A stretch of 32,703 nt of DNA from a virus, in IMG/VR virus record IMGVR_UViG_3300032069_000037, positions 1 to 32,703 of that record; one strand, given 5' to 3'. Below are positions 22,007-31,225 of this stretch, piece by piece; the first letter of the stretch is position 1; each line of letters starts with the position of its first letter. The notes beneath the pieces are model-generated. The model saw nothing but the letters and a program-made list of their open reading frames with translations. It did not search any database and was not told the DNA's origin. Made by a program: the position numbers and the translations under genes.

Positions 22007-22888
22007 ATGTCAAGAAGAATTGTTATTGGGGCCGCGTTAGTAGGGATAATATTATTAGTGTTAGTATTGTCGATAGTCATTCAGAAAGAAAATAATAGAG
22101 AGCACGCCCCAATCTTTATTAACGGCGACAATCAGTTCACCTCGGCAAATGGTGTCACGAGCGGTTCTGGGACGGCGAATGACCCATACATCATCGAGAA
22201 CTGGGCCATCAACGCTTCGGGTACGCACGGCATAACCATACAGAGCACGACTGCTTACTTTATCATTCGGAACTGTTTGGTCAAAAACGGTGGCGACTCT
22301 TACAACGGAATCTACTTGAACCACGTGATCAACGGGAGAATTGAGAACAACAGGTGCAACAACAACTCTTACGGCATCCGCTTGTATGTATCGAGCAACA
22401 ACACTGTCACTAACAACATCTGTGAGAACAATACAAACAGCGGCATCTACCTGTGGATATCGTCCAATTACAACACCCTGACTGGTAACATCTGTGAGAA
22501 TAACTCCCAACACGGCATCTCGCTGCGCTCTTCGTCCTATGATACTCTTATCGGCAATACTTGTGAGAACAACATCTGGTATGGTATATACTTGGGTGCC
22601 TCGACCTACGATAACCTAATTAACAACAACTTCTCGAAAAACAACTACGGCATCTACTTGATTTCCTCGTCTAATAATACATTCACCTACAACTACCTGC
22701 TTAACAATGCAGAAAACAACGCCCAAGATGGCGGCCTTAATAATTGGGACAACGGTTCGCACGGCAACTACTGGAGCGATTGGCAACCACCTCAGCATTC
22801 TGACGCCGATAACAATGGGATAGTGGACGATTCAAGACCGATTTTTGGCGGGACTAACCAAGATAACTATCCGCTCGTAATTTTTTAG
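22007..22888 (+). CDS. NosD-like right-handed beta-helix protein with membrane anchor
   Basis: A 293-residue protein. Residues 4-25 form one membrane segment without a clear cleavage site, so it should stay anchored with its bulk outside the cell. Residues about 60-240 repeat the parallel beta-helix pattern (NGIYLNHVINGRIENNRC, YGIRLYVSSNNTVTNNIC, YGIYLGASTYDNLINNNF), and the end has NYWSDWQ as in archaeal NosD-like surface proteins. Such folds often bind or cleave polysaccharide. Expressed from the regulatory arm, it could alter the surface of the lysogen, for example to block superinfection; this is inference. It starts directly after the regulator's TAA. Confidence 0.75.
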   Translation: MSRRIVIGAALVGIILLVLVLSIVIQKENNREHAPIFINGDNQFTSANGVTSGSGTANDPYIIENWAINASGTHGITIQSTTAYFIIRNCLVKNGGDSYNGIYLNHVINGRIENNRCNNNSYGIRLYVSSNNTVTNNICENNTNSGIYLWISSNYNTLTGNICENNSQHGISLRSSSYDTLIGNTCENNIWYGIYLGASTYDNLINNNFSKNNYGIYLISSSNNTFTYNYLLNNAENNAQDGGLNNWDNGSHGNYWSDWQPPQHSDADNNGIVDDSRPIFGGTNQDNYPLVIF

Positions 22889-22977: not shown

Positions 22978-23010
22978 TCCGGGCGGCGCTTGTTTGGAGC
23001 ATCGCCCGGA
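22978..23010 (+). other. Leader hairpin upstream of the methyltransferase-like gene
   Basis: TCCGGGCG (22978-22985) pairs with CGCCCGGA (23003-23010), and inside the loop GCT pairs with AGC. A TATA-like TTTAATTA lies at about 22959-22966, so the hairpin would be at the very start of a transcript. It could be an mRNA stability or translation control element. Confidence 0.45.
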
Positions 23011-23046
23011 CGAACCCACCGCAGAATCAATCCGGAGACAACCGAA

Positions 23047-23664
23047 ATGAACCCAACGGCAGGCCCAAAAAAGTCTATTGCGACGCGCTTATTTAGGAGT
23101 ATCGTTCGCGCCCTAAAGCCATTTACCGCCGAGATTCCCAAGGAGCGCGTTTTGGAATTTAGTACCGAGGCGGCATTTGGGCGCTATAAACCATTCTTCC
23201 CAGCCGCTGCTATCGCCCATCCCGCAAAAGCGAACCTCGCCATGATCGAGTGGATAATCAAACGCTACACGAAGGAGGGCGACCCGATATTTGGCGGGTT
23301 CTCACGCGAATGCCTGACTACTCTCGTCGTGCGCGGGCGGAAGGCGTTTGAGGAGCGCGGCGAAAACCTTCAATTTCATTGGCAAGACATGGCACCGGAG
23401 TGGGCAAGGGACATCAGATATTCGATGATGTGTGCCCTTTCGAGCGCGGAGGGCCACCACCGTTTTGAGACGGCGACTTGGTATGACCACATTCGCAACA
23501 AGTGGAACAACCCCGCCCACTTTTGCAGTCCCTATAACTATTTCGAAGGCGTTCTCCACCCGATAGGACTCGATGACAACAAGGACGTCATCTACGAGTA
23601 TCGGGACTGGGCGACGCAGGTTTACAAGGAAGTAAAAGTTCCGAGGATTGATTCCTTTGCGTAA
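23047..23664 (+). CDS. DNA-methyltransferase-derived protein without catalytic motifs
   Basis: A 205-residue protein (start ATG 23047, GGAG upstream; a TTG at 22990 would lengthen it across the leader hairpin). The segment FFPAAAIAHPAKANLAMIEW, then IIKRYTKEGDPIFGGF, resembles archaeal and viral amino-methyltransferases, which have HPAK...WII..YS..GD.ILDPMAGTG. Here the SAM-binding Gly-rich loop is altered to DPIFGGFSREC, and no DPPY-type motif is present; the rest keeps a conserved-looking helix and aromatic residues. It may be an inactive relative used for DNA binding or as a decoy. The replication protein gene overlaps its 3' end. Confidence 0.6.
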   Translation: MNPTAGPKKSIATRLFRSIVRALKPFTAEIPKERVLEFSTEAAFGRYKPFFPAAAIAHPAKANLAMIEWIIKRYTKEGDPIFGGFSRECLTTLVVRGRKAFEERGENLQFHWQDMAPEWARDIRYSMMCALSSAEGHHRFETATWYDHIRNKWNNPAHFCSPYNYFEGVLHPIGLDDNKDVIYEYRDWATQVYKEVKVPRIDSFA

Positions 23665-26600
23665 GAACTTCTTTGAACGGCATTTCAAGCGCACGAAGCG
23701 GGCGCTAAAGGCGATGGCGGTCAAGTTCGAAGACCCCTCCCGGGAGTGGACGAAAGCGGATGAAGATGCAATAAAGCGCGTCATCAACGACATGCGGGGA
23801 AAGCCCATCTACGAAAAATTGGTGCAAATTTACGAGAAGACCATAAAAGGCGACAGACGTTCGATTGAATTTCTGCTTACACACATGCTTTCGGCATATA
23901 CCACCGACCCGAACAACCTCGGCCTTGAGGCGCCGACCAGCGAGGGCAAAACATACCCAACGGTTGAGGTGGCAAAACGCTCCCCCAGCGACGATGTATG
24001 GTATATTGGTGGACTCTCTCCAACTGCGCTCGTTCACGATTATGGCGAATTGGTTGATGATGAGGGAAATCCAATCGAGGCGGCAATAGAGGCGTTACGC
24101 GACCGGATACGCAACTTGAGGGAGGCTGGGTCGGAGGGCAAGGGCGACTTGGTGATCGCACGGGATGAGTTGAAGGAGTTGTTGCGAAAGTCCCGTTACG
24201 TTGTGGACATGGAAGATAAAATAATGATTTTCCTCGAAGCCCCGTGCCTTGAAACGTGGGAGCACCTGCGCCCGATTTTGAGCCACGACGTATTCGAGAT
24301 AAGTTACAAATTTACGGACAAGACGAGCGCGGGATCGCTCAAGACAAACCATGTCGTTATCCGAGGCTGGCCTGCCGTTATCTACCTCAAAGCAGGACGC
24401 GGGCACGAGGATATCATTTGGGATGAAATACAATCGCGCTTCACGACAATCTCCCCGAAGACGGGTTTTGATAAATACCGCGAGGCGATAAGACACATGG
24501 CGATGAAGAAGGGACTGCCCGGCCCCATTTTCGAACGCACGTTGAATTTTGAGGAATTCAGATGGCTTGAGGACGTTCTGAAGTGCTTGCGCGTAAGACT
24601 TGCCGATATCAAATATAAGGCTCGGAAGATTTGCCAAGAAGTCGATCCCAATATGTTCTGGGTGCCGTTTTATGAAAGCATCGGTAACGAGTTTCCAGCA
24701 AAAGAGGGGCGGCACATGCGCGACAGCCGCAGATTCATGACGTTGCTTCAGATGTCGGCGGCGATAGATTGCTACAACCGCCCGACGCTCAATATAGGCG
24801 AAGCGGAGTTCATCGTGGTCGTGCGAGAGGACTACGAGCGCGCGGTCAGGCTCTTTTTTGGTGAGGCGGGGGACGAAATCTTTTCTGGCCTGCCGCGTCA
24901 CGTCATCGACTTTTTCCGAAAGATACCCTTGAAGATGTTTAAAGAAGGCGCGCCGATAACCGTTGCAGAGATGGTCAAGGAGAGCAAGAAGCACGGAAAG
25001 CCGATAAGTGACAAGACCATGCGCAGCCGGTATCTTCCGCTACTCGAAAATGCTGGACTTCTATCAAGCGAACCCGATCCCAACGACAAACGCCAAAATC
25101 TATGGGCGGTTTTAAGTGAGGAAATCGCTCCAAAAGATATTCCAATTTACACCCTTTTCGAAAAAGGGCTATATTTTAACGCCCAAATCCTCGAACAAAG
25201 GTTTGTGGAGGCTTTAAAGATATTCCGCCCAGAAGAGGCATGTATAAAGGATTATGATGGCACCCCACTAACAGCGGCCCAATTATGGGAGAAATACTAC
25301 TCTAAGGGAACGGGGGTCTTGGCGGAATATCAGCCAACCCCGCAAACGACCCCAACCGAGGAAAGCGGCGGAAAAATACAACCCATTTCGGAAACGGGTG
25401 TAATTGGACATATTTCGGGGGAGAATGCGCCGAAAATAGAGGGCTTCGGAAAACCGATGAACCTTAACAACGTGATCAAGCGCGCCCTGAAGACATACAA
25501 AATCAGCATCACAACCAAGCGCCGCGCCTTTCTCAAGGAGGCGGCCCGCGCGTTCGAGGAGAGGTGCGAGAGCAAAAACGGAAAAACGGTCATGGCGCTG
25601 CACCTCGGCGATATCAAGAAGATGATACCCGATATCGAGATTTACCTTGATGAGTTCGCGCGCTTGACTACCCCCGACATCATCGCCCGCGGCATAACTG
25701 AGGCGATAGTTCACGAGACCTGCCATGCGGAGGGATTGAACGAAAAACAGGCACACGCAGCGACCAGAGAGATAATGAAAATGCTAAAGCCGATGGTCTG
25801 GAAATTGATAAAGTGCCCGAAGACGAACGCAAATGTAGGTTGGGAGGAATGCCTGCGTTGCTCCGACGCCGAGAAACATCCGACCTGCCCCGGCTATTCG
25901 ATTCGGTCTCGCTCGAAGCCTCGCGAGCATGCTCCGAATATTTACCACATCACCGAACTCATCACTCCGCGGCATGCGTATTTTGAGCGCAAATATGACG
26001 TTACGAAGGCATGGGCGGATTCTCCAGTCTGGATGCGCTTCTTCATGGGGCGGGCGTTCCACGAGTTCTACGAAAAGGCATACGCAGAGCACGAAGTCGA
26101 GATAGGGGTGGCGCGCGACTACGGCGATTTCAAGGTGACGGGCAGAATCGACATCATCAGCGACGGACTGCTTCAAGAACTGAAAACTCACGGCGACCTC
26201 GGCAGGGTCAAGGCGCGCGGGGTCAGTCCCGAGCATGTCTGGCAGGCGCATGCTTATTATTCCTTACTAAAAGTGACGCAACCGCGGCTCGCAAACGAGA
26301 TTAAAAAGATAAGGATACTCTACGCCGGCCTGACGCGCGCGGATACGTGGTGCGAGTTCGACGTGAAACCGAAAGACATAAGCGATGACATATATGCCCG
26401 CGCAAAGGATTTGCACGAAGCGCTCAAAGCGGGCGTGGCGCCGGAGGACTTCCCCTGCCCGGAGTGGCGATGCAGACTTTGTGATTATGCCTCGCAGTGC
26501 AAGGGAATTAAGATTGCCGAATATAAAAAAGAAGACAAGACTTTTGAAAAGTTTTTGGAGCAGCACGTCGTTGGGGTCAAGAAGGTCGCTGACATCTTGA

Positions 26601-26950
26601 GGGCGCAGGGCCACACCGTCGAGGTTCAGGAACTCGCGAAGAGCGACAAAATTATAAGCGATCCCGCCCAAAAGCAGCAAAACGAATTCGACATCTTGGA
26701 CATTTGCCACAAACAGAAAATCGACGTCAAGACCACGGCGCGCTCGGATATCTGGTGCAACGCCGCCCAACTCACAAAGGCCGCCGATTTGGACTTGATT
26801 TATTATTTCGTGTTCATCAAGAGCGGCGAGGTCAGGCGGATCAAGGCAAAGAAACTACACGCGGCGCAAAAGACGGCAAAGTCCGACGTCAACCAATTCG
26901 GCGAGGAGGGATTTATTTTTGATAAGGAAGTTGCGGAGGCCGTGAAATGA
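23648..26950 (+). CDS. Giant replication protein: ATPase, winged helix, HExxH, Cas4-like and second nuclease
   Basis: A 1100-residue protein, probably the viral replication helicase/nuclease. Walker A is APTSEGKT (95-102) and a Walker-B-like strand is MIFLE (193-197). A winged helix follows at about 414-490. Residues about 600-715 contain VHETCHAEGLNE, an HExxH zinc-protease signature (H689, E690, H693, possible third ligand E699). Residues 721-955 are Cas4/RecB-like: a Cys cluster C723/C735/C738/C747, D835, E844-x-K846, Q866xxxY870, then C937/C942/C945/C951, probably an Fe-S cluster. Residues about 965-1100 look like another PD-(D/E)XK domain (FDILDICHKQKIDVKTT; D1015, D1026, K1028). The TTG start overlaps the previous gene; ATG at 23714 is an alternative. 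Confidence 0.75.
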   Translation: MIPLRKNFFERHFKRTKRALKAMAVKFEDPSREWTKADEDAIKRVINDMRGKPIYEKLVQIYEKTIKGDRRSIEFLLTHMLSAYTTDPNNLGLEAPTSEGKTYPTVEVAKRSPSDDVWYIGGLSPTALVHDYGELVDDEGNPIEAAIEALRDRIRNLREAGSEGKGDLVIARDELKELLRKSRYVVDMEDKIMIFLEAPCLETWEHLRPILSHDVFEISYKFTDKTSAGSLKTNHVVIRGWPAVIYLKAGRGHEDIIWDEIQSRFTTISPKTGFDKYREAIRHMAMKKGLPGPIFERTLNFEEFRWLEDVLKCLRVRLADIKYKARKICQEVDPNMFWVPFYESIGNEFPAKEGRHMRDSRRFMTLLQMSAAIDCYNRPTLNIGEAEFIVVVREDYERAVRLFFGEAGDEIFSGLPRHVIDFFRKIPLKMFKEGAPITVAEMVKESKKHGKPISDKTMRSRYLPLLENAGLLSSEPDPNDKRQNLWAVLSEEIAPKDIPIYTLFEKGLYFNAQILEQRFVEALKIFRPEEACIKDYDGTPLTAAQLWEKYYSKGTGVLAEYQPTPQTTPTEESGGKIQPISETGVIGHISGENAPKIEGFGKPMNLNNVIKRALKTYKISITTKRRAFLKEAARAFEERCESKNGKTVMALHLGDIKKMIPDIEIYLDEFARLTTPDIIARGITEAIVHETCHAEGLNEKQAHAATREIMKMLKPMVWKLIKCPKTNANVGWEECLRCSDAEKHPTCPGYSIRSRSKPREHAPNIYHITELITPRHAYFERKYDVTKAWADSPVWMRFFMGRAFHEFYEKAYAEHEVEIGVARDYGDFKVTGRIDIISDGLLQELKTHGDLGRVKARGVSPEHVWQAHAYYSLLKVTQPRLANEIKKIRILYAGLTRADTWCEFDVKPKDISDDIYARAKDLHEALKAGVAPEDFPCPEWRCRLCDYASQCKGIKIAEYKKEDKTFEKFLEQHVVGVKKVADILRAQGHTVEVQELAKSDKIISDPAQKQQNEFDILDICHKQKIDVKTTARSDIWCNAAQLTKAADLDLIYYFVFIKSGEVRRIKAKKLHAAQKTAKSDVNQFGEEGFIFDKEVAEAVK

Positions 26951-27294
26951 GGTCGCACGCGGTTAAAATTATTCTAATGGGGCGGATTCTCGAAATTCTC
27001 AGCAAGCATGCGTGTGGAAAAGCGCGACGTCCCATGACTACTCAAGAAATTTGGGACGAACTCGAAAAAGAAGAATTTAGCGGACAGGCACGGACATGGA
27101 TACGGCGCGGGATGATAAGCAAGAATCAAGTGGCATGGTTATTGAGGAGAATGTTAAAACCATCTGTCCTCCCGCCTTCATTCGCTGCACATTTTACGCT
27201 TCCTCTCGTCAACAAAATTGTCAACCAAAAAGGAGAGGCGGGAGGCACGAAGTGGACGCTTGCCTGCACGGTTAAACAGGGGATGCGAACATGA
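26947..27294 (+). CDS. Small protein with winged-helix features
   Basis: A 115-residue basic protein. Helices KIILMGRILEILSKHA and TTQEIWDELEKEEF followed by KNQVAWLLRRMLK resemble a winged helix-turn-helix. The ATG overlaps the replication gene stop (ATGA), and its own end overlaps the next gene. It may assist replication or packaging; the family is unknown. Confidence 0.6.
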   Translation: MRSHAVKIILMGRILEILSKHACGKARRPMTTQEIWDELEKEEFSGQARTWIRRGMISKNQVAWLLRRMLKPSVLPPSFAAHFTLPLVNKIVNQKGEAGGTKWTLACTVKQGMRT

Positions 27295-28079
27295 AGGTAA
27301 CAAATGTAACAGATGTAACAGGATTTTTCAAAAAATACCCGCTGATGGTCACAAAATCGGGAAAACCCCCACGCCGAGCCAGTAAAAAAGCCCCCGAAAG
27401 CGCGCATACCCCCCCTGCCGTGGGGGGGGTCGAGAAGCGGGGCATCGAGGACGCAATTGCGGAGACTTGGAGGTTAATCGACTTGGTAAAAGAACGACTG
27501 AGTGCCGACGTTAGTGAAAGCGAGAAAGTAAAATGGGCGTCTGTTTTATCGCAGGCCATCGGAACATTAAACAAACTCTACTACAAGGCGGGCGTGGGTC
27601 AGGTTGAGGAGGACGATTTGGCGCAGATTTTGAGCAAGATGCCAGAAAAGTACCAAAAAATCATAAGAAAGAGGCTCGCGGGGGATAAAAACGGGCAAAC
27701 CATCCCGCCCAATCGCGCAAGTTTCGAGGGGATTCAGCGCGGCAATCTTGTGGAAATCGTCTGGCTCGATGCGTCCCTTTCGCGCGGCATAATTAAGGTC
27801 ACGAATCGCGTTATAGCCACATACAAGCGGACGGTCGGGCGCTTCGTGGGAGTGTTCAAGGACGACCAATACAAGCACCCGCACGTCTTGGTTCAGCACG
27901 AGGCCGACGAGAACGGAGTGGCGGATGTCTCATCAATCCCCCTCGGCATCGTGGTCGGCGTCAATCGCCTCGGGGCAAAGTCGCCAGCCAAACGCGTCAA
28001 GGGGACAGACGCGCAATGGACGCAGCCTCTCGGCCCCGCGGGCGGCGTGAAGATAATGACGAGGAGGAGAAAGCAATGA
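27291..28079 (+). CDS. Hypothetical two-domain protein upstream of packaging genes
   Basis: A 262-residue protein. Residues 48-130 are helical (IEDAIAETWRLIDLVKERL, YQKIIRKRLAGDK); residues 145-235 are beta-rich (RGNLVEIVWLDASLSRGII, RFVGVFKDDQYKHPHVLVQ, VADVSSIPLGIVVGVNRL), perhaps a small barrel. The N-terminus repeats VTNVTDVTGF, encoded by three TGTAACA-like units. A GC-rich hairpin lies in the linker codons. No HTH of a small terminase is evident, but the location would allow that role. Start by ATGA overlap. Confidence 0.6.
   Translation: MKVTNVTDVTGFFKKYPLMVTKSGKPPRRASKKAPESAHTPPAVGGVEKRGIEDAIAETWRLIDLVKERLSADVSESEKVKWASVLSQAIGTLNKLYYKAGVGQVEEDDLAQILSKMPEKYQKIIRKRLAGDKNGQTIPPNRASFEGIQRGNLVEIVWLDASLSRGIIKVTNRVIATYKRTVGRFVGVFKDDQYKHPHVLVQHEADENGVADVSSIPLGIVVGVNRLGAKSPAKRVKGTDAQWTQPLGPAGGVKIMTRRRKQ
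27408..27430 (+). other. G/C homopolymer hairpin inside a coding sequence
   Basis: ACCCCCCC (27408-27415) faces GGGGGGGT (27423-27430) across a seven-base loop, an 8-bp stem of almost pure G-C in codons for a Pro/Gly-rich linker. Eight G and seven C in a row are also slippage-prone. Confidence 0.55.
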
Positions 28080-28339
28080 GGGACTGGATACGCCGGGCGC
28101 TCACGCGGACGGTGACGGTGCGGTCGAAGGGGAAGGGCAAACAGACGGAAAAATATCAACTCCCACCCCCGGAGGCGCTTGTGTGGGGGGTCGTCCTCGC
28201 TATCATCTTTTTTTGCGGATTTTGCGCACTTCAGATAGTTCACATGTTGGCGTTCAGATCGTGGAACAGCGAGGTATGGGCGGGAATGATGCTGATTGTC
28301 GGAATCATATTAGGCGCGTTTTTCGGAGGTAGGGCGTAA
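28076..28339 (+). CDS. Small membrane protein with two helices
   Basis: An 87-residue protein, MRDWIRRALTRTVTVRSKG at the basic start, then two membrane helices (EALVWGVVLAIIFFCGFCAL, WAGMMLIVGIILGAFFG). The ATG overlaps the upstream TGA (ATGA) and AGGAGGAG precedes it. Function unknown; it might be a lysis or envelope protein. Confidence 0.6.
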   Translation: MRDWIRRALTRTVTVRSKGKGKQTEKYQLPPPEALVWGVVLAIIFFCGFCALQIVHMLAFRSWNSEVWAGMMLIVGIILGAFFGGRA

Positions 28340-29638: not shown

Positions 29639-29720
29639 AGTAACCTGCCCAAAGTGCGGCAAGACGTTTAAAACAACCGTGGATGTCGAACCGCCAGAGC
29701 GCAACGAGGGACATGAATGA
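29622..29720 (+). CDS. Truncated zinc-knuckle protein before the terminase
   Basis: A 32-residue protein, MEVKVEVTCPKCGKTFKTTV, ending at TGA 29718-29720. In the same frame the sequence goes on for 24 codons with a second knuckle (YGIVCSKCGKVTPWGGFKW) before a TAA at 29793-29795. A zinc ribbon needs both knuckles, so this looks like a 57-residue gene broken by one in-frame TGA, or read through. The terminase gene overlaps the second half. Confidence 0.5.
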   Translation: MEVKVEVTCPKCGKTFKTTVDVEPPERNEGHE

Positions 29721-31225
29721 GCGAACTACGGGATAGTCTGCTCCAAGTGCGGGAAGGTTACGCCGTGGGGAGGTTTCAAATGGATGAAAAACTAACGCGC
29801 ATACGCGATAGGATTTTGACGAACCCGAAATATGCGTTTGAGATGAGCAAACAAATTTCAGTAGTGCGTGCCCTCTTTCACGATCCTGCGATGGTCAGGA
29901 GGGTTCGCGACGACATTCTGTTTTTTTGCCGCTTCGTGCTTGGGTTTGAACCCACCGAGTATCAAGCAAAGTTCCTTACCGACCCGCATCAGTTCGTGGT
30001 GGCGAGGTGGTGCAGGCAGAGCGGAAAATCTTTCAGCGTCGGGGCGCTTCTCCTTCACATCGCCTTGACCAACCCGCACGTCCACATCGGCATAGTCGCT
30101 CCATCCCTTCGCCAGAGCAAAAACGTGATTCAAAAGATGGGGGGATTTATCAAACGACTTGAGAGGGGCATCGGTGGAAACTTGATAAAAAAGGCCCGCA
30201 AGACCGCTATCGAGTGCGGGGACGGGGCCGTGATAGAGGCGCTCCCAAATAACCCGGACACCGTTAGAGGCCCGACGCTTTTTGTGGTTTATTGCGACGA
30301 GTGGGGGTTTGTGAAGAACGACGAGGAGATGTATGACGCGATACTTTTCACCCTCGGCACCACGAACGGACGTCTGATTGCAACAAGCACGCCGAGTATA
30401 AAAAACAGCCTCTTTTATAAAATGTGTTTTGATCCCAATTATGAGGACTTTAGCAGGCATCACATCAACTGGAGGCAGGCGGTGGAACCGTATGGGCCAC
30501 TCAAACCCAACATCCTTGAAAAAATAAAAAAGCAATTACTGGGAGACCCGTGGAGATGGCAGCGTGAGATGGAGGCGGAATTTGCAGAGGACGTGGACAG
30601 GTTTTTCCCGCTCGAATTGATAATAAAATGCCAAGACCCTGATCCCCTCGATAGCAAATACAAAGACTGGGACTATTACCCGTTTGAACACATGCCACTG
30701 GGGGAGTTCTATATCGGCGCGGACTTGGGTAAAAAAGTAGATTTCAGCGTGGTCGCGGTCATTGAGAAAAGGCGGGACGGCAAATTCCGCCTCGTCCATT
30801 TGAAACAGTTCCCGCTCGAAACCCCATACGCATCTGTCATCGGATACGTGAAGGCAATCTGTGACCGATACAAAAACGTCGGGAAAATTGCGGTAGATCG
30901 GACAGGGGTTGGGGAATACATAGTCGAGGACATGGAGAAGGCAATCCCCATCCCGACCGAGGGCGTGCTTCTGACGGTTCCGAGCAAGCAAGAAGTTCTG
31001 GGAAACCTAAAGCGCAGGATGGAGGAGGGGAACGTGTTGATTCCATACGACCAAGACCTGTTCGCCGAGATGAACGCGGAACAATTTGAACTTATGAAAA
31101 GCGGCCAGAACCAATTCAGCCATCCATCGGGAACGCACGACGACCGCCTCTGGGCGCTGGCGTTGGCCGTCTATGCCACGCGGGGAGTGGAACCCTCACA
31201 GCCGCCGATTGCTATTTCAGCATAA
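29717..31225 (+). CDS. terL: Large terminase subunit
   Basis: A 502-residue packaging motor with all the key motifs. Walker A is RQSGKS (100-105), Walker B LFVVYCDE (188-195), motif III ATSTPS (222-227). The RNase H-like nuclease domain has GADLGKK with D336, VDRTG with D394 and THDDRLWAL with D475/D476. It cuts concatemers and drives DNA into the portal. Two starts are possible: ATG 29717 with GAGGG, overlapping the previous stop, and ATG 29780 with GGGGAGG six bases upstream; the latter removes 21 residues that lie over the broken zinc ribbon. Confidence 0.95.
   Translation: MSELRDSLLQVREGYAVGRFQMDEKLTRIRDRILTNPKYAFEMSKQISVVRALFHDPAMVRRVRDDILFFCRFVLGFEPTEYQAKFLTDPHQFVVARWCRQSGKSFSVGALLLHIALTNPHVHIGIVAPSLRQSKNVIQKMGGFIKRLERGIGGNLIKKARKTAIECGDGAVIEALPNNPDTVRGPTLFVVYCDEWGFVKNDEEMYDAILFTLGTTNGRLIATSTPSIKNSLFYKMCFDPNYEDFSRHHINWRQAVEPYGPLKPNILEKIKKQLLGDPWRWQREMEAEFAEDVDRFFPLELIIKCQDPDPLDSKYKDWDYYPFEHMPLGEFYIGADLGKKVDFSVVAVIEKRRDGKFRLVHLKQFPLETPYASVIGYVKAICDRYKNVGKIAVDRTGVGEYIVEDMEKAIPIPTEGVLLTVPSKQEVLGNLKRRMEEGNVLIPYDQDLFAEMNAEQFELMKSGQNQFSHPSGTHDDRLWALALAVYATRGVEPSQPPIAISA

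Follow-up and report, generated by a model that had tools for sequence, protein, structure and literature searches.

A single viral open reading frame joins an MCM-like ATPase to a Cas4-like nuclease: a predicted motor-nuclease of an archaeal tailed virus

We analyzed a 32.7-kb stretch of viral DNA, the IMG/VR record IMGVR_UViG_3300032069_000037 (32,703 nucleotides; hereafter the window), and in it an open reading frame (ORF) of 1100 codons whose product we call P0001. At a probability of about 0.7, we read P0001 as a replication/recombination motor-nuclease of an archaeal tailed virus, in which an MCM-like motor carries a tethered nuclease of the Cas4/RecB type. The reading is built on the folds, the conserved catalytic residues, the primase and nuclease neighborhoods of relatives, and the single-frame fusion; from these we infer a ring, unwinding, nicking or resection, and a division of labor between the parts. 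Each confirmed module is already known, and what is new is that an MCM-like ATPase and a Cas4-like nuclease are fused, in a chain that also holds two orphan parts. The original prediction, made from the sequence, had divided the chain into five parts. The AAA+ ATPase, the winged helix, and the Cas4-like nuclease hold up, and the HETCH protease and the second C-terminal nuclease are present as motifs only. The residues that it singled out (H689, E690, D835, and K1028) are correctly numbered.

No database family covered the first half of P0001. An AlphaFold model from an alignment of 24 sequences has a predicted local distance difference test score (pLDDT) of ~90 over residues ~30 to 550 and displays an AAA+ fold and a winged helix. 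The best structural match of the ATPase is Mcm2 (VIA Z 21.2, root mean square deviation 4.2, 309 aligned residues), and Z values of 20 to 21 were obtained against Mcm2-7 and archaeal MCM, at an identity of just 10 to 16% in the structural alignments. ORC, RavA, Mg-chelatase, and RuvB AAA+ proteins are also among the Foldseek matches. The Walker motifs proposed earlier are borne out: in the P-loop APTSEGKT (residues 95 to 102), Gly and Lys are invariant in relatives, as are P113, F195, S212, D214, R264, K276, R358, and G470 across the 24 aligned sequences. In Walker B, L196 and P199 are nearly invariant, and position 197 is D or E. The proposed winged helix is likewise supported, by MarR-like matches and by the model. 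Residues ~27 to 551 make up a module of the replication-helicase type, a kind already known.

Scanning virus contigs for a degenerate Walker A gave two relatives of this module (L004 and L009; 31% over ~480 residues), and the alignment based on them led to nine genome loci, mostly named Nitrososphaerota or Thaumarchaeota. With a profile of the ATPase, 25 of 398 Thermoproteota genomes matched, about 16 of them strongly. Relatives are found in Nitrososphaerota, in other archaea, and, by fold, in fuselloviruses; L039, the nearest of them, has 41% identity over 528 residues, and its ATPase ends in a tail similar in length to the linker of P0001. In three relatives, a Prim-Pol domain precedes the ATPase in the chain (L017, PF09250 at 8e-9; L024, 8e-5; L079, 8e-7), and elsewhere the ATPase adjoins a DNA_primase_S gene (L076, 2e-10) or a gene for a PriX domain (L074, 7e-9). 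Several carry a C-terminal zinc finger. In a viral structure library, the best named matches of the fold are A460 of fusellovirus SSVk1 (E 2e-10) and an SSV7 protein, and the ASV1 record lists SSV7_B471 and SSVk1_A460 as similar to ASV1_C674. PMC4158269 groups ASV1_C674 with the Mpal_2033/arCOG07809 helicase and links it to replication initiation, and it reports PD-(D/E)XK nucleases alongside arCOG07809 elements. Distant Halobacteriota matches include proteins of ~1000 residues whose sequence appears to resemble that architecture. We also noted a stand-alone ATPase of the family, 541 residues long and 34% identical, on a 20.5-kb virus contig (L160:2124-3749), and an ATPase of the family on a provirus-like contig (L075:1573-3794), next to a gene similar to the one that precedes TerL in L002.

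The nuclease domain matches PF12705 (1e-6), phrog_1706 (4e-16), and TIGR00372 (2.6e-6), and it misses the cas4 equivalog cutoff of the last (27.4 versus 65 bits). Structurally, it matches the Cas4 protein SSO0001 with a Z of 18.3 over 191 residues. The RecB-type catalytic core is complete, and since the full set of catalytic residues is in place, the predicted nuclease is likely to be catalytically active. The C-terminal Cys triad is invariant, and an extra Cys, C937, stands in front of it. The N-terminal Fe-S Cys, present in most relatives, is missing, which makes the domain Cas4-like and not a canonical Cas4; C937 might replace it. The separate Cas4-like protein encoded near the ATPase of L039 is also without the N-terminal Cys. 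Of the Cas4-like nuclease with an Fe-S Cys set that had been proposed, the PD-(D/E)XK nuclease and the three C-terminal Cys stand, and the usual N-terminal Cys falls away.

In relatives, motor and nuclease are separate neighbors. The closest relative has a Cas4-like gene (TIGR00372 at 66.8 bits, cutoff 65) 416 bp from its ATPase gene, with a 99-residue ORF between the two and an integrase beyond. On a marine virus contig (L015/L004), a RecB-like nuclease gene (PF12705, 1.6e-7) lies 143 bp downstream of the ATPase. Given these neighboring genes, P0001 looks like a fusion of two functions that adjoin elsewhere. The same fusion is absent among the 25+ ATPase relatives. The tail of P0001 gave only Cas4-region matches in the 398 Thermoproteota genomes; there was no match in plasmids, and in phages the matches were to the Cas4 region only; and exact-peptide scans of the virus and genome contig collections with full P0001 returned nothing. 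Scans with the degenerate Walker A, ATPase alignments, and PILSHD...Y(K/R)F-D found solely stand-alone or primase-fused ATPases. The fusion was thus not found in the collections and literature searched, which exclude metagenomes and most subscription journals, in keeping with the earlier remark that the domain combination was unfamiliar. GC content at third codon positions (GC3) and codon use are similar across all segments of P0001, and since this holds in one frame, P0001 is one continuous coding unit in the contig. Its start codon is TTG, at 23648; an alternative ATG at 23714 (residue 23) is plausible as the start because homology begins only at residues ~27 to 31. An internal ATG at 25457, which would give a separate HETCH-nuclease product, has no clear ribosome-binding site upstream.

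We propose that P0001 would serve both replication initiation and recombination-type end processing. The winged helix probably contacts the viral origin or fork. The MCM-like motor, of a type that archaeal mobile elements use with AEP primases, would form a ring and unwind DNA, and the flexible linker would tether the nuclease, letting it nick or resect, in place, the strands that the motor has opened. Resection may then yield single-stranded ends for recombination-dependent replication ahead of packaging. In P0001, a Cas4-like nuclease is tied to a member of a family of MCM-like replication ATPases that archaeal mobile elements carry and about which little is known, and the fusion predicts joint action of motor and nuclease at the viral origin or fork. 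Archaeal viruses commonly encode Cas4-like proteins, whose roles are uncertain; a covalent tie to a motor for replication gives direct evidence of a role in replication or recombination.

Between linker and nuclease lies the HETCH region, the first of the orphan parts. HExxH (H689 to H693) occurs once in the ~10,400 residues of the window's non-overlapping ORFs, and it arises by chance in 6.8% of P0001 shuffles. The longer pattern HExxHxxGxx(H/D/E), chosen after seeing the sequence, arises in 0.05%. The zinc-protease signature of the PROSITE PS00142 type fails, with T at the hydrophobic position and E at the last; together with the chance rate of HExxH, this leaves the signature originally claimed unconfirmed. 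The region has no Pfam, PHROG, or PDB-sequence match and no homologue in 398 plus 257 Thermoproteota genomes. A search with HETCH only gave six weak matches in the 257 genomes, all of one class, and the motif was absent in all four of those inspected; 7 genomes of another class gave a single chance match. Matches in a pattern scan of virus contigs were all unrelated or in the wrong frame. By hhalign, HETCH matches an unnamed archaeal HExxH family at a probability of 37% over 26 residues only, much of which is the motif itself; the score is 29, against 12 to 17 for five other stretches of P0001, and the motif and the next helix are in register. AlphaFold models place HETCH in a helix, with a turn and a second helix after it, at a pLDDT of ~50, which speaks neither for nor against a metal site. 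The unnamed family, HEYLHSLG(x)xDExxVR, consists of archaeal proteins of ~170 residues with a conserved downstream His and occurs in 37 of 126 Thermoproteota genomes (L082:104-736, L161-L180). The L082 copy, without a Pfam match at E <= 0.5, sits among ribosomal protein genes and hence does not belong to the element; it served for comparison only.

These results lend no support to the earlier proposal of a working protease that cleaves its own chain: there is no homologue, the pLDDT is ~50, the PROSITE-type pattern is not matched, and the hhalign match is weak and short. For the HETCH region, a structural role is likelier than a proteolytic one. Most likely it is a metal-binding or structural spacer, perhaps together with the four-Cys cluster. 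A definite version of this, in which HETCH (H689, C692, H693, and H704) and/or C723-C735-C738-C747 would hold a structural zinc or replace the lost Fe-S Cys of the nuclease, we rate at a little under even odds. It would suit a nuclease without the N-terminal Cys common to most relatives, preceded directly by a four-Cys cluster and carrying C937 before its C-terminal triad; however, the region has no homologue or confident model, and this Cys is also missing from the L039 Cas4-like protein, which has no such cluster. An active zincin (HExxHxxGxxE), that is, a small metalloprotease severing the chain between motor and nuclease or clearing proteins off viral DNA in the manner of SPRTN, is unlikely. 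The rarity of the longer pattern in shuffles, tempered by its choice after the fact, and the in-register match to a widespread archaeal family speak for a zincin, as does the flexible linker ahead of the region. Against it stand the failed signature and the want of matches and homologues; moreover, the His that the HEYLHSLG family conserves downstream of its motif has no equivalent at that place in P0001, and the model, of low confidence, consists of helices only and lacks an edge strand.

The second orphan part is the C-terminal domain. In sequence it is laid out like a PD-(D/E)XK core: NEFDIL...IDVKTT supplies the D...(D/E)xK motif, and a hydrophobic stretch resembling a strand comes after it. 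The domain matched neither a family nor a structure, and AlphaFold gave no confident model of it. In structure searches with the whole models, matches covered the ATPase and the nuclease only, and their absence elsewhere in the chain does not exclude other folds. Viral ORFs with a similar FDI-x9-(D/E)VKT layout include some plausible nucleases, and their homology to the C-terminal domain is not significant; the shuffle comparison is biased, the ORFs having been selected by the motif. The second PD-(D/E)XK domain of the original prediction thus keeps its core motif and lacks a family. We read the domain as probably being another PD-(D/E)XK nuclease, one specific for DNA structure.

We considered that the nuclease may serve defense or counter-defense, for example against CRISPR, and be fused merely for co-expression. 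Cas4 proteins are CRISPR adaptation nucleases and are carried by archaeal viruses (PMC4625639), but here the partner is a replication-type ATPase, two other elements have a nuclease beside the ATPase with no recognizable cas1 or cas2 among the neighbors read, and the domain is without the N-terminal Cys that typifies Cas4; we regard this explanation as quite unlikely. Improbable, too, is the most far-reaching picture, a single chain that unwinds DNA with an MCM-like motor, cuts it with two nucleases, and has a working metalloprotease that strips or severs DNA-bound protein or frees the nucleases from the motor by self-cleavage.

Several points weigh against a motor-nuclease of the replication type. 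P0001 is known from one genome, and no primase was recognized among the replication-side genes of the window. A profile search of ASV1 gave no significant match to C674, so the fusellovirus link rests on fold. Unlike canonical MCM, P0001 has no Pfam MCM match and no N-terminal OB/zinc domain, for which the AAA+ core, starting at residue ~27, leaves no room. A chimeric contig also keeps a small residual probability: a contig error joining two adjacent genes would account for the parts lying in separate genes in relatives and for the failure to find a second copy of the fusion, but it is very improbable, since one frame runs over 1100 codons with continuous codon use and GC3 and an ordinary linker at the joint, and a frame-keeping chimera would require a coincidence.

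The window encodes portal, terminase, capsid, and tail genes, which identify a tailed virus, and a tyrosine integrase. Relatives of its TerL (29717-31225) occur in 76 of 397 Thermoproteota genomes, at 27 to 62% identity and often several per genome. Because terminase relatives of up to 56% identity occur in these genomes, an archaeon from the phylum Thermoproteota is the most likely host. The proviruses with TerL relatives form a widespread, little-described lineage, and 15 stretches fetched from them have no ATPase, HETCH, or Cas4-like ORF. A 107-residue ORF (28016-28339) that overlaps the ORF at 27291-28079 is kept upstream of TerL in related proviruses (31 to 34% identity) and is a candidate small terminase or packaging gene. 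Upstream of P0001, the ORF at 22990-23664 overlaps its start by 17 bases; its HPAK...YTKEGDP stretch is reminiscent of a DNA methylase, the usual catalytic motif is absent, and there is no family match. A NosD-like repeat protein with ~23-residue repeats and a signal-like N terminus (22007-22888) lies at the strand switch of the genome.

Table 1. Features of P0001, with residues and positions in the window
Feature	Residues	Positions	Strand	Basis
Whole ORF P0001	1100 residues	23648..26950	+	Single frame, no internal stop
AAA+ ATPase core, MCM-like fold	~27-416	23726..24895	+	AlphaFold, structural matches, 25+ relatives
Walker A EAPTSEGKT	94-102	23927..23953	+	G100, K101 invariant in 24 sequences
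Walker B KIMIFLEAP (E197)	191-199	24218..24244	+	Alignment and strand in model
Candidate arginine finger (EIQSRF)	R264	24437..24439	+	Invariant column; putative role
Winged helix, MarR-like	~417-488	24896..25111	+	Family and structure matches
Low-complexity linker	~552-603	25301..25456	+	pLDDT 31-40
Orphan helical region with HETCH	~604-720	25457..25807	+	No homologue; low-confidence model
HETCHAEGLNE	689-699	25712..25744	+	Sequence, chance test, weak profile match
Four-Cys cluster, possible zinc knuckle	C723, C735, C738, C747	25814..25888	+	Sequence only
Cas4/RecB-like nuclease: H805 (GxxxH), D835 (D), E844-K846 (ExK), Q866 and Y870 (QxxxY); C942, C945, C951	~765-955	25940..26512	+	Family, fold, alignment
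C-terminal domain (NEFDIL...IDVKTT, 1012-1030)	~960-1100	26525..26947	+	Sequence motif

Among known systems, the AEP-associated AAA+ ATPases (Mpal_2033/arCOG07809; ASV1_C674, SSVk1_A460, and SSV7_B471) share with P0001 an MCM-like AAA+ core and a winged helix. They too are carried by viruses or integrative elements with tyrosine integrases, with PD-(D/E)XK nucleases reported nearby (PMC4158269). Those ATPases are fused to or near AEP primases, whereas P0001 has no primase domain and none recognized nearby in the window; where several relatives end in a zinc finger, P0001 runs on into its HETCH, Cas4-like, and C-terminal domains. MCM replicative helicases have the same AAA+ core plus winged helix, at a Z of ~21. 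The helicases Cch and Cch2 of SCCmec elements are similar by description: they are mobile-element replication ATPases that have a C-terminal DNA-binding domain and work with a dedicated primase/polymerase, and Cch has been described as MCM-like (PMC7581432 and PMC5862659). By the same description, they differ in being bacterial, in belonging to other Pfam families (DUF927, D5-type), and in having no nuclease in the chain. The Cas4/RecB-family nucleases of rudiviruses and SSO0001 resemble the nuclease of P0001 in fold, catalytic residues, and the three C-terminal Cys, with 24% identity to the SIRV Cas4; the P0001 domain differs in the absent N-terminal Fe-S Cys, in scoring below the TIGR00372 cutoff, and in not being a separate gene. 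AddAB, RecB, and Dna2 combine a motor and a RecB-family nuclease in one chain, the motor coming first in AddAB and RecB, and their motors are superfamily 1 helicases. P0001 would work alike, but with an MCM-like AAA+ ATPase as its motor in place of a superfamily 1 helicase.

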